From: an uncultured Armatimonadota bacterium
GTDB taxonomy: Bacteria > Armatimonadota > Armatimonadia > Armatimonadales > Armatimonadaceae
DNA: 64,000 nucleotides
Direction: 5' to 3'
Assembly (NCBI GenBank): GCA_903910385.1
Contig: CAIVZM010000007.1
Span: 1 to 64,000, forward strand
A program made the position numbers and the translations under genes. The notes under the pieces were generated by a model that did not search any database, was not told where the DNA came from, and saw only the letters and a program-made list of their open reading frames with translations. Below are positions 50,872-56,283 of this stretch, one piece after another (positions within the stretch are counted from its first letter, which is position 1; every line of letters starts with the position of its first letter).

Positions 50872-52857
50872 TTGTCTATCCGATTCTCGTCATCCCACAT
50901 CGCTATCTGTTCTGTTGCGCTCTCATTTCTGTTTAGCGTCCCTGTGACTGGAGCGCAGGCTCAGGAAGTACGCTCCGTTCCGCCGCCGGGCGTTACGATA
51001 CCGGAGAATGACCGCAAAGAATTGACCGATGGCGTCGCTGCGCTCGCCCGCGAGATTCAAAGTCTGCAAAGTGATTTGAAAGGCAAGCCGCAACTCCTGC
51101 GCTTTCTACCCGATGTCCAGATTTATGAAAAAGCTGTCCGTTATGTACTCTCGTACAACGAATTCTATGATGTAAAACAGGTAGCCACGGCGCGTCAACT
51201 GCTGGCGCAGGGAAATGAGCGGGCGAAGGCATTGCGCAATGGCGATGCTTCCTGGATGAAGCAGAACGGCCTTCTTGCCCTCGGGTATATCAGCAAGATC
51301 GATGGTTCCGTGCAGCCGTATGGCATTGTCGTGCCAAAGGAATGGATTGCTGGGGATAAAACGCCCCGGCGCCTCGATTTCTTCTGCCACGGTCGCGGCG
51401 AGCAATTGACCGAACTCGCCTTTATCAATGAACGGCAGAATCAGCCGGGAGAATTCACGCCTCCGGGCGCGTTTGTGATCCATCCCTATGGACGCTTTTG
51501 TTGCGCGAACCGATTTGCAGGAGAAGTGGATTTGTTCGAAGCGCTAGCGGATGCAAAGACACGATACGCAATCGACTCGGATCGTACCATCGTCCGGGGT
51601 TTTTCCATGGGAGGCGCGTCCTGCTGGCAGTACGCGACCCATTACGCCGATTGGTGGGCAGCGGCGGCGCCGGGAGCGGGATTTTCCGAAACGCTCGAAT
51701 TTCTCCGCCTCGATCCCACGAAGTTGCCCCCATATGAGGTGACACTGATGAGGTGGTACAACCCGACAGACTATGCTACGAATCTGTATCAGTGCCCGAC
51801 CGTCGCGTACAACGGCGCGGATGACGGTCAAAAACAGGCGGCAGACCGTATGCAGGACGCCATGGCGCAGAAAGGTTTGCGCCTGACACGTGTTGTCGCA
51901 CCCAAAACCGGACACTGGTACAACGCGGACGCCAAAAAAGAGATCGACTCCCGACTTGCGGTTTTCGCGGAAAAGGGTCGTGATACGCTTCCAAATTCCA
52001 TTCGCTTCACGACCTTCACCCTTCGTTACAATTCCATGAACTGGATCACGGTCACCGGGTTGGGACAGCACTGGGAACGCGCCCGTGTCAACGCTGACCG
52101 TACTGAAGATGGTATCACTATCCAGACTGAGAACATCACCCGACTGTCGCTCTCGCCAAAAGTTGCGGATGCGGCTCGGAAATCGGTGACAATCGACGGC
52201 GAACGATTAAAGGGGACAGCGTTCGCTAAAACCCGCGAAGGCAAGTGGACGGTCGATAGAAACGCGGATGCTCGCCGCCTTCGGAAAAAGCCCGGATTAC
52301 AGGGGCCTATCGATGACGCTTTCATGGACAGGTTCGTTATGGTCAAACCGACAGGAGTCGCCTTGAATCCTCGCACCGGCGGGTGGACGGATACAGAACT
52401 TCAGCATGCCGTTCGCGCCTGGCGGGCGCAGATGCGCGGAGATGCGCCTGTTCTTGAGGACATAGCGGTCACTGATGCGGAAATCCGCAGTTCAAACCTC
52501 GTCCTCTGGGGAGACCCTTCCAGTAACGCTGTCCTTGCCCGAATCGCAGGAAAGTTACCCGTAAAATGGGAAAAAGACGGGTCGATCCGGGTGGGCGCGA
52601 AAGTATTCTCGGCGGGAACGTCCGTTCCCATTCTGGTCTATCCCAATCCCCTCAATCCGAACCGTTATATCGTTCTCAATAGCGGATTGACCTGGCGGGA
52701 GAGCGCGTACCTGAACAACGCCCAGCAACGCCCAAGATTGCCGGATTGGGCGGTGATCGATATCACCACACCGCCGGACGCTAACTCTCCCGGTCGTATT
52801 GCGGACGCTGGCTTTTTCGATGAGGAATGGAAAGTTCAGACCAACCCGATAAAGTGA
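50872..52857 (+). CDS. Secreted alpha/beta hydrolase (prolyl-oligopeptidase-like)
   Basis: A 661-residue exported serine hydrolase. It has a signal peptide (AICSVALSFLFSVPVTGAQA) and a helical N-terminal region. The hydrolase core has LDFFCHGRGEQ (oxyanion-like HG motif), the nucleophile in VRGFSMGGASCWQ, a probable acid in AYNGADDGQKQ and the histidine in PKTGHWYN. A C-terminal beta-rich domain (about 385-660) has no family that I recognise. The substrate, peptide or ester, cannot be told. The start is TTG at 50872 with GGAAGGAA upstream. A TACAAT at 50819-50824 is a possible -10. It is convergent with, and overlaps by 22 bases, the next gene. Confidence 0.8.
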   Translation: MSIRFSSSHIAICSVALSFLFSVPVTGAQAQEVRSVPPPGVTIPENDRKELTDGVAALAREIQSLQSDLKGKPQLLRFLPDVQIYEKAVRYVLSYNEFYDVKQVATARQLLAQGNERAKALRNGDASWMKQNGLLALGYISKIDGSVQPYGIVVPKEWIAGDKTPRRLDFFCHGRGEQLTELAFINERQNQPGEFTPPGAFVIHPYGRFCCANRFAGEVDLFEALADAKTRYAIDSDRTIVRGFSMGGASCWQYATHYADWWAAAAPGAGFSETLEFLRLDPTKLPPYEVTLMRWYNPTDYATNLYQCPTVAYNGADDGQKQAADRMQDAMAQKGLRLTRVVAPKTGHWYNADAKKEIDSRLAVFAEKGRDTLPNSIRFTTFTLRYNSMNWITVTGLGQHWERARVNADRTEDGITIQTENITRLSLSPKVADAARKSVTIDGERLKGTAFAKTREGKWTVDRNADARRLRKKPGLQGPIDDAFMDRFVMVKPTGVALNPRTGGWTDTELQHAVRAWRAQMRGDAPVLEDIAVTDAEIRSSNLVLWGDPSSNAVLARIAGKLPVKWEKDGSIRVGAKVFSAGTSVPILVYPNPLNPNRYIVLNSGLTWRESAYLNNAQQRPRLPDWAVIDITTPPDANSPGRIADAGFFDEEWKVQTNPIK

Positions 52858-53640: not shown

Positions 53641-54123
53641 TTAATCTTCAGTTTGAAGAGCGTCCGATTCGATTTCGCGCCACCAGGCGGAAAAACGCCG
53701 GGGAACGCGAGCAGCATTGTAGGATACGAGCGAGGGAACCGGGATCACCTCGACCTTATGCGATTCTTCCAATGCGCGGCGGTAGTCTGCAAAGCGACTC
53801 TCTGGCGTCATCGTGGTGACAATAGTCTCCGCTTTCCATTGTTGGGCAAACGCACGCACCTCAGCGACGACATTTCCTCGCCGGAGAGAACAAACTCTTC
53901 CCGCTGCTGTCCGCTCCTTGAAAATCTCGACCACGGATTCATACAGAAAAAACAGGCGGTGGAAAGCGAATTGCGCTTCACTAAGGAAATCCTCGTCAAA
54001 AACAAAGACTACCGGCGCGTCCGGATACCGCGTCAACGCCGGGTTATTTGCGGAAAGGTGATCGCCGTGTAGCCATATTACCTGTGGCGTCCGGTCTGCG
54101 TCCGCCTCGGTTTTCATGTTCAT
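53641..54123 (-). CDS. Photolyase N-terminal alpha/beta half (separate protein)
   Basis: A 160-residue protein resembling only the N-terminal Rossmann-like domain of DNA photolyases (VIWLHGDHLSANNPALTRYP, VVFVFDEDFL, then AFAQQWKAETIVTTMTPESR). It has no FAD-binding domain. The ATG at 54123 is chosen since GGAG lies 6 bases before it; a longer TTG start at 54135 is possible. The gene overlaps the preceding FAD-domain gene by 80 bases, so both products are made together. I infer that the two halves assemble into one photolyase- or cryptochrome-like complex. Confidence 0.78.
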   Translation of the reverse strand: MNMKTEADADRTPQVIWLHGDHLSANNPALTRYPDAPVVFVFDEDFLSEAQFAFHRLFFLYESVVEIFKERTAAGRVCSLRRGNVVAEVRAFAQQWKAETIVTTMTPESRFADYRRALEESHKVEVIPVPSLVSYNAARVPRRFSAWWREIESDALQTED

Positions 54124-54928
54124 ACTCATCTCCAAATAGGCGCTTGCCTAACTGTTCATAGCTTGCATCGAAGGGGCAGGTATTACTCCTTGCCGCTTCA
54201 CAGTGGGTGCAGTAGGTCGTTCCTGTGCGGGAATCGCGACTGAATTTTTCGACGTTGCTCCGGTTGAAGAAATATGGTTTGTGCGAAAATGTGGAAGCCA
54301 CCCATTGCCAGGAGAGATTGTTGGATGCCGGGTCACCGTCCAGCAGGAATCGGTAGAATAATTTCGCTCCGGTCTGCCAGGTGATTTTACGATGGTGCGT
54401 CAGGTAGGCGGCGAACCACATTCGCGCATGATTGTACATATAGCCGGTCTGGTACAGTTGCTGTAGCGAGATATCCATGCAATTGAGTCCGGTACTGGCG
54501 GCGGTAATTTCCATAGGGAGTTCCGTCCGATATCCCAGCGGAATCTTAGGTTCTTCCATATCCGCGGTAATCTCATCCCCATAACGCTCCCATTGCAGCT
54601 GCCAGAATTGACGCCATGCCAGTTCCTGTATAAATTTCACCGCTTTTCTCGCTCCAATTTTCGCAGTCGCCACCTTCCGCGCTTCCCGCAGGGTAATACA
54701 TCCATGGCGAAGATAGGGTGAGAGAAGCGACGCGCCGGAATCCGCGCCAACATCGTTCCGGCGCTCCTCATAACGCGCAACATCGAATCGTTCCAGTCGT
54801 CTCAATCCCTGAGAGCGCCCCCCGATATGCGACGCGGGGGTCGGCTCACCGGCATATAGACCGGTCAGAGCATGGGCTAGTCGGTCCGCCGCCTCCGACC
54901 GATTCTCGTTTTTCCAATCGATTTCCAT
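54044..54928 (-). CDS. Photolyase/cryptochrome FAD-binding half with a Cys quartet
   Basis: A 294-residue protein consisting of a photolyase FAD-binding domain alone: SLLSPYLRHGCITLREARK, FIQELAWRQFWQLQWERYG, YMYNHARMWFAAYL and DGDPASNNLSWQWVASTFSH. Cysteines C150 (TGLNCMD), C240 and C243 (YCTHC) and C251 (TCPF) are spaced like the quartet that binds [4Fe-4S] in FeS-BCP photolyases. FAD binding is well supported; the cluster is inferred. Similar free-standing halves exist in cyanobacteria, as far as I recall. It is transcribed before the N-terminal half, reversing the fused order. Confidence 0.85.
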   Translation of the reverse strand: MEIDWKNENRSEAADRLAHALTGLYAGEPTPASHIGGRSQGLRRLERFDVARYEERRNDVGADSGASLLSPYLRHGCITLREARKVATAKIGARKAVKFIQELAWRQFWQLQWERYGDEITADMEEPKIPLGYRTELPMEITAASTGLNCMDISLQQLYQTGYMYNHARMWFAAYLTHHRKITWQTGAKLFYRFLLDGDPASNNLSWQWVASTFSHKPYFFNRSNVEKFSRDSRTGTTYCTHCEAARSNTCPFDASYEQLGKRLFGDEYEHENRGGRRPDATGNMATRRSPFRK

Positions 54929-55224
54929 AATTCATCCTGTGAAGTAATAAACAAAAGTAAATACAAAATTGCACCGGGAATTTTGAGGGGATTCCATTTC
55001 GCATCTCTTGCCGAAATTTCACGGTTAATGCCGGAAAAATGGAACATTCAATGTTGGCGTTTCGTCCTAACCAAGCGGGTAAGGGTGGTAATGCGCGCCT
55101 ACTGAATTGCACCTGTACACAATTTCGACAAAAGCGCGGCTATAATACAACAGAGCTATATTATCCAATCAATATCTGTCTTAGGTCCGATCACACGACC
55201 GGCCTCAGGAAGCAGGAAACCCAG

Positions 55225-56283
55225 GTGAATTGTGGAAAGTGGCGCGATCTAGCGTCTGAATATGTCGAAGGCACACTTCCTCCGCCGATGCGTGAGGTGA
55301 TGGCGAATCACGTTAAGACCTGTCCTTCTTGTCAGGAAGACGAAAAAATTCTGCACGGTCTCTACGCAGCGATGAGCGACCTGCCGGAAGTAGACCCTCC
55401 GTCCTTCTTTGCGGATAAAGTGATGGCGCGGATCGAGCGGGAACAGGCAGCCGGTCCGTGGTGGCAGCGCATGCTGGCGGGGCTTCCCAATCTGGGACGT
55501 ACCGTCTTTGGTGTTGGTCTTGCTTCGGCGGCGGCAGTCGCTGTCGTCTGGTGTATCAATCGCCCGGTCAACGTCAACTCCCTGTTGAAAGCGACATTGA
55601 TGCCCGATGCGGCTAGCTTGAGCATTACCGGTTCTCCCCTGCCGCGTCTCCGCGTCATCGAGAGTCATGATTTACGGGAGGGGAAAACCTACGGATTCAG
55701 GTTCCGCATCGAAAATTCGGATTCCGGCAATGTCCGTGTATATGTCCCGAACGCCGCCAAGTCCGTTTACTCCTTCCCTGTCAACAAGCAAGAGACCAGT
55801 CCCGTTTATTTGCCACTGGCGCTCGCCCGTGATCAGAAAACGTTGGCGCTGACAATCGATTGGGAAGCCAATATCCCGAACGCACAATCCGGGAAGCAGG
55901 AAATGGCGCACTCACGAGCGCTGGTTGTCCCGCTTCCGCAAGCGGCGAACTCAGTGGATGAACGTCTCACAATGGACTTGCCGGAAATGCGACTCGCGGA
56001 TGCAGTCCGAATGATGGCGGGCGAGTACGGCGCTGCTGTCGCGATGGAAGATATTCAGTTTTCCGAAAAGGTTCGTTTGACGGCGAAAAATGAAACCCTT
56101 GTCGAAGCCCTGCAACGACAACTGTCTCCCCTCGGCTTGAAGATCGAATTCAGCGCGAATGGCATTGCAATTCAGAAAGCGACAGCGCCTTCGGCGAGCC
56201 TTTCAGAGACTGCCACTTCTGCGCCCGCTCGCATCGCGCCTGCGGAGTCCAAAACGTCCGAAGCGGGCAGCGCCACACCCTGA
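55225..56283 (+). CDS. Zinc-finger (anti-sigma type) membrane protein with STN-like domain
   Basis: A 352-residue protein. The N-terminus is a zf-HC2/anti-sigma zinc finger: C3, then H29-x3-C33-x2-C36 (ANHVKTCPSCQ). A membrane helix is at about 94-110 (VFGVGLASAAAVAVVW). The extracytoplasmic part is beta-rich and ends with an STN/secretin-like fold (LPEMRLADAVRMMAGEYGA, LVEALQRQLSPLGLKIEF) and a serine/alanine-rich tail. No sigma factor is adjacent, so it may sense envelope state for a distant one. The GTG at 55225 has GGAA upstream; an earlier ATG at 55039 lies before a TATAAT at 55141. Confidence 0.72.
   Translation: MNCGKWRDLASEYVEGTLPPPMREVMANHVKTCPSCQEDEKILHGLYAAMSDLPEVDPPSFFADKVMARIEREQAAGPWWQRMLAGLPNLGRTVFGVGLASAAAVAVVWCINRPVNVNSLLKATLMPDAASLSITGSPLPRLRVIESHDLREGKTYGFRFRIENSDSGNVRVYVPNAAKSVYSFPVNKQETSPVYLPLALARDQKTLALTIDWEANIPNAQSGKQEMAHSRALVVPLPQAANSVDERLTMDLPEMRLADAVRMMAGEYGAAVAMEDIQFSEKVRLTAKNETLVEALQRQLSPLGLKIEFSANGIAIQKATAPSASLSETATSAPARIAPAESKTSEAGSATP

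Follow-up and report, generated by a model that had tools for sequence, protein, structure and literature searches.

The closest described counterparts of the locus reported here come from marine picocyanobacteria. Haney et al. (2022; PMC9426592) described, in marine Synechococcus and Cyanobium, the Phr4/Phr5 pair, in which a FAD-only gene precedes an alpha/beta-only gene in a different reading frame, the fused version Phr6 of Cyanobium, and four Fe-S-type cysteines in these proteins; the Synechococcus pair had already been noted in 2012 (PMC3441193). The UV-protective function of the pair is documented for Synechococcus RS9916 only: Synechococcus mutants in the pair show sensitivity to UV-C, and in E. 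coli the pair confers UV-C protection with no significant light dependence (PMC9426592). Among other photolyases, FeS-BCPs, or prokaryotic (6-4) photolyases (PhrB, PDB 4dja; SePhrB), have four [4Fe-4S] cysteines (C350, C438, C441, and C454 in PhrB; PMC3204975) in a single chain that begins with a PF04244-type domain. Class I CPD photolyases, such as those of E. coli (PhrB) and A. nidulans (1owl/1tez), are also one chain, with the alpha/beta domain first, a longer C-terminus, and no Fe-S cysteines. NewPHL (Phr7) enzymes, which are single-strand CPD photolyases, have an N-terminal FAD domain but lack the Cys quartet and end in a C-terminal Z-domain. Finally, short photolyase-like (SPL) proteins, cited in PMC9649867 and PMC9178010, resemble by description the FAD half studied here, being FAD-domain-only chains that lack the alpha/beta domain, but they are described with no partner gene.

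The window, a 64,000-nucleotide stretch of DNA from an uncultured Armatimonadota bacterium, carries such a pair on its reverse strand. One gene (54044..54928, 294 aa) encodes the FAD-binding, catalytic half of a photolyase (PF03441, E=1e-22; 53-row alignment), and the next (53641..54123, 160 aa from an ATG at 54123) encodes the alpha/beta, antenna half (PF00875, E=1.9e-9, with a DPRP match below the cut-off; 46-row alignment), for which an in-frame TTG at 54135 is an alternative start giving 164 aa. A Pfam search found no alpha/beta domain in the FAD-half gene and no FAD domain in the alpha/beta-half gene, and a profile search of its own genome with the alpha/beta half gave a match at E=2.4e-46. 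The initial annotation, which had seen only one domain in each gene and an overlap of 80 bases, is thus confirmed by Pfam and by the sequence. The overlap (54044..54123, reverse strand) extends to 92 bases if counted from the TTG, and the alpha/beta half lies in the +1 frame relative to the FAD half. A start/Shine-Dalgarno scan and the sequence itself place a Shine-Dalgarno-like GGAG (54130..54133, reverse strand) 6 bases ahead of the start codon at 54123. In the 53-row alignment the conserved core of the FAD half stops at about residue 266, and its last 28-30 residues, which fall within the overlap, are unconserved. In contrast to the 80-base overlap, the marine genes have a fixed junction of seven G-C bases; this junction, a lineage-specific feature reported for marine strains that does not define the family, is absent from the window, and many relatives differ from it too. 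The window protein is ~45-48% identical to the cyanobacterial members fetched, and its host is an armatimonadotal bacterium. The arrangement is less rare than the initial annotation implied, as reports of the same pair in marine Synechococcus date from 2012 and 2022.

The FAD half has cysteines at residues 150, 240, 243, and 251, as first annotated, and the proposed resemblance to the [4Fe-4S] set of FeS-BCPs holds residue by residue. In a profile–profile alignment of the window FAD half with Armatimonadota FeS-BCPs (234 columns, E=1e-12), all four cysteines are aligned, with C150, C240, C243, and C251 opposite C359, C447, C450, and C463 of L103, which correspond to C350, C438, C441, and C454 of PhrB; the alignment leaves off the start Met and numbers the window cysteines 149, 239, 242, and 250. 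The first presumed [4Fe-4S] ligand, C150 (54479..54481, reverse strand), is present in 41/41 relatives of the Phr4/6 set; the presumed CxxC ligands, C240 and C243 (54200..54211, reverse strand), and the presumed fourth ligand, C251 in the CPF motif (54176..54178, reverse strand), are each kept in 40/41, and all four columns are cysteine in 10/10 FeS-BCPs. By the same column counts, the quartet is absent from class I rows and nearly absent from NewPHL-like rows. The spacing between C243 and C251 is x7, compared with x5 in Phr4/Phr5 (C257-C263 in RS9916). Because the quartet aligns with the four FeS-BCP ligand cysteines and is conserved in relatives, it is not a chance occurrence, and on the strength of this homology and conservation we strongly infer that the window FAD half carries a [4Fe-4S] cluster. 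In the wider set, L013 (G015:C296) and L051 were the only relatives found without the C-terminal three cysteines, and because of this loss the cluster appears to be dispensable in some relatives. In both, the alpha/beta half still adjoins, making these natural Fe-S-less versions of the FAD half.

The family extends well beyond the picocyanobacteria. In a search giving 61 relatives, the closest belong to the same family-level group as the window, at 55-68% identity; four of these (L004-L007) are split like the window pair, and two (L008 and L009) are fused into one frame of 443-444 aa. An error of assembly as the source of the split is ruled out by these four likewise split genomes. Across the phylum, 12 of the 291 genomes searched contained the family, one of the 12 (G060) being NewPHL-like in the tree. 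A scan of a genome collection returned 240 relatives, and the best 80 of the 240, which were fetched, come by record title from Armatimonadota, Acidobacteriota, Chloroflexota, Cyanobacteriota, Planctomycetota, Pseudomonadota, Actinomycetota, and other phyla, most of them as metagenome bins, such that single outliers could be misbinned; relatives also occur in Deinococcota. The halves are annotated as "FAD-binding domain-containing protein" and "hypothetical protein," and because of these names the enzyme has probably been overlooked in several phyla.

The loci examined comprise 63 split and 24 fused forms, and their arrangements bear on how the two halves are made. The single-chain form of this permuted photolyase is produced by relatives, some within the same family-level group, and Haney et al. 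suggested frameshifting for phr4/phr5 (PMC9426592). By analogy, a programmed +1 frameshift in the overlap could yield a single FAD–alpha/beta chain from the window, a proposal that draws on the fused relatives, which include two from the same family-level group, and on the window alpha/beta frame, which is +1 and already open ahead of the FAD stop. However, offsets of 2 (n=41), 1 (n=13), and 0 (n=9) are all found among the split loci, and about half of the split pairs have the second start codon 4 bases ahead of the FAD stop, often together with a Shine-Dalgarno-like sequence. Such a 4-base stop/start overlap is typical of coupled translation. Moreover, in two Chloroflexota loci (L080, 4890-7079, and L097, 2057-4414) a complete ORF, in L080 a PF01553 acyltransferase, stands between the FAD and alpha/beta halves, and in Chlorogloeopsis, Calothrix, and Coleofasciculus the FAD half stands alone (L100, L087, L090) and the alpha/beta half, a strong match (E about 1e-56), lies at a different site in the genome (L122, L121, L120), the paired loci sharing no sequence; in a control genome with linked halves the alpha/beta search returned the same locus. 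Frameshifting could not join halves that are interrupted or unlinked, and two subunits are therefore the simplest solution for the family and, by extension, for the window, where the alpha/beta gene starts at an ATG of its own preceded by GGAG. We consequently regard a frameshifted chain as very unlikely. The varied frame offsets, the 4-base overlaps, the intervening acyltransferase gene, and the unlinked cyanobacterial halves make separate subunits the most likely state of the window products. Least probable of all is that the halves are the remnants of a decaying photolyase gene: a different contig of the genome does encode a complete class I photolyase, but both halves are open, their key positions are conserved, and relatives that are 55-68% identical carry the same split.

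A tree of 70 rows places the window among Armatimonadota members in a set of 5 rows (support 99/94), itself within 7 rows that include the fused pair (95/87). The FeS-BCPs form a separate group with full support (100/100), and the window lies outside it. NewPHL-like rows, whose reference sequences were identified by architecture and not by name, are interspersed with the Phr4/6 rows at modest support values (85/94 and 81/93), some of the branches being long; Haney et al. likewise placed Phr7 among Phr4/6 (PMC9426592). The window clade and the cyanobacterial members are in the same part of the tree, and Phr4/6 sequences form no single clade (four changes, of which the starred branches force only one). 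Like the window FAD half, NewPHL enzymes have the FAD domain at the N-terminus and an E/N/M active site; the NewPHL-like C-terminal parts gave no match to the alpha/beta profile.

The active site of the window FAD half differs from that of the FeS-BCPs. E102 (54623..54625, reverse strand) aligns with the lesion-contact Glu of class I CPD photolyases, where FeS-BCPs have Gln; N166 (54431..54433, reverse strand) aligns with the class I CPD active-site Asn, where the (6-4)-specific FeS-BCPs have the essential His366; and M170 (54419..54421, reverse strand) aligns with the class I CPD Met, where FeS-BCPs have Leu370. In relatives these columns are E in 38/41, N in 39/41, and M in 38/41, compared with Q/H/L in 10/10 FeS-BCPs. 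The window FAD half also has the conserved Trp pair and so shares with class I CPD photolyases both the E/N/M and the Trp residues. Because the E/N/M residues are of class I type, the lesion would probably be the cyclobutane pyrimidine dimer (CPD). Haney et al., in contrast, took the Fe-S residues and the UV-C phenotype as grounds for predicting (6-4) repair (PMC9426592), and a (6-4) enzyme resembling the Fe-S photolyases is a rival on the lesion alone, leaving the two-subunit reading unaffected. The Cys quartet common to FeS-BCPs and the response of the Synechococcus pair to UV-C rather than UV-B (PMC9426592) are consistent with it. Against it, His366 of PhrB is essential for (6-4) repair, which H366N abolishes (PMC4619345), and this residue is Asn in the window and in 39/41 relatives, with Glu and Met replacing Gln and Leu; together, the E/N/M residues and the inactivity of H366N argue against the (6-4) prediction. 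In addition, the Cys-less NewPHL-like proteins, reported as single-strand CPD photolyases, lie near or inside the family in the tree, with weak support. On balance, (6-4) repair seems unlikely, and CPD remains the favored lesion. The E. coli result, UV-C protection with no significant effect of light, is odd for a photolyase and fits neither the CPD nor the (6-4) view well.

The initial annotation also allowed for a light sensor, for which nothing was found in favor, as the catalytic active-site residues are kept. Some FeS-BCP members do act in signaling, with CryB of Rhodobacter an example (PMC3320616), but a cryptochrome-like role in place of repair sits poorly with the retained CPD-type lesion-contact residues, with the UV sensitivity of the Synechococcus pair mutants (PMC9426592), and with the frequency of repair-gene neighbors, and we consider it highly improbable. 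Genes for FeS-BCPs border the pair in many Chloroflexota and, among Armatimonadota, in L006, L007, and L013; picocyanobacteria have a class I photolyase near the pair, and in Acidobacteriota the pair is directly followed by another two-domain photolyase (L031:6133-7617, L048:6169-7593, and others). An FeS-BCP or other photolyase gene beside the pair in many loci thus provides a DNA-repair context. The acidobacterial follow-on photolyase has a PF03441 FAD domain, is divergent in the tree, and carries R/F/A instead of E/N/M. The window pair's own neighbors are non-repair genes, and the window genome gave no match to FeS-BCP or PF04244.

The AlphaFold model of the FAD half (pLDDT 87, pTM 0.82; low confidence in the last ~20-28 residues) has class I photolyases as its best PDB fold matches, followed by cryptochromes, and class I CPD photolyases are also the best PDB matches by sequence; PhrB (5lfa, 4dja) is among the fold matches, with TM 0.65-0.66. 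The model of a fused Armatimonadota relative combines a FAD fold with an alpha/beta fold (pTM 0.87), both domains being mostly confident and low confidence being found mainly in the Cys-loop region, the linker, and the ends. In a fold search, this fused model aligned over lengths that correspond to its FAD part alone, an outcome expected of an order-dependent search. The alpha/beta half has no PDB homolog by sequence, its sole match being a chance match to a capsid protein, and because of this the antenna chromophore has no sequence-based prediction. No match to CofG/CofH (FO synthase) above the curated cut-off was found in the pair's own genome, and for this reason 8-HDF is unlikely to be the antenna chromophore.

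Collectively, the homologous quartet, the FAD-first fused relatives, and the separation of the halves where frameshifting is impossible make a two-subunit, iron-sulfur-type photolyase the best reading of the sequence, in keeping with what was first proposed. The pair would be a circularly permuted photolyase in two-gene form, with the FAD domain first and the alpha/beta domain second, and is likely to constitute one light-driven DNA-repair enzyme of two polypeptides, a [4Fe-4S] catalytic FAD subunit and an alpha/beta antenna subunit. One mRNA would give rise to both polypeptides, through coupled or independent initiation, and these would then associate; the FAD subunit would contain a structural [4Fe-4S] cluster, and blue light would excite the reduced FAD, from which an electron would pass to the dimer and split it. 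The pair, its reversed order, the fused form, and the cysteines are already known from marine picocyanobacteria (PMC9426592; PMC3441193). Judged against the open-access literature covered, three points may be new: the breadth of the distribution, the case against obligatory frameshifting, and a CPD-type active site in an Fe-S-type photolyase; a search of open-access papers for photolyases in Armatimonadota gave nothing relevant. The full proposition, a two-subunit, CPD-specific iron-sulfur photolyase from a widespread family with permuted fused, overlapping, interrupted, and unlinked forms, is put forward tentatively, as somewhat short of an even chance. If true, it would undo the association that is assumed to exist between (6-4) repair and the Fe-S cluster, and the cluster would be an ancestral trait, lost by the Cys-less NewPHL and class I enzymes. 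Because it combines the cluster cysteines with a CPD-type active site, the pair makes it possible to test cleanly whether the Fe-S cluster is tied to (6-4) repair or is merely an old structural element. The arrangements also suggest that a photolyase whose antenna and catalytic domains are separate, even unlinked, gene products can function or at least be retained.

Directly upstream of the window pair, and divergently transcribed, is a gene for a zf-HC2 (anti-sigma-type) protein (55039-56283), and a 661-aa protein of the prolyl-oligopeptidase family (PF00326) is encoded at 50872-52857. Elsewhere in the family, Deinococcus plasmids (L113, L114) carry the enzyme in both split and fused form, the split pair being a FAD-domain gene and a "hypothetical protein" with a 4-base overlap and the fused version measuring 472 aa.
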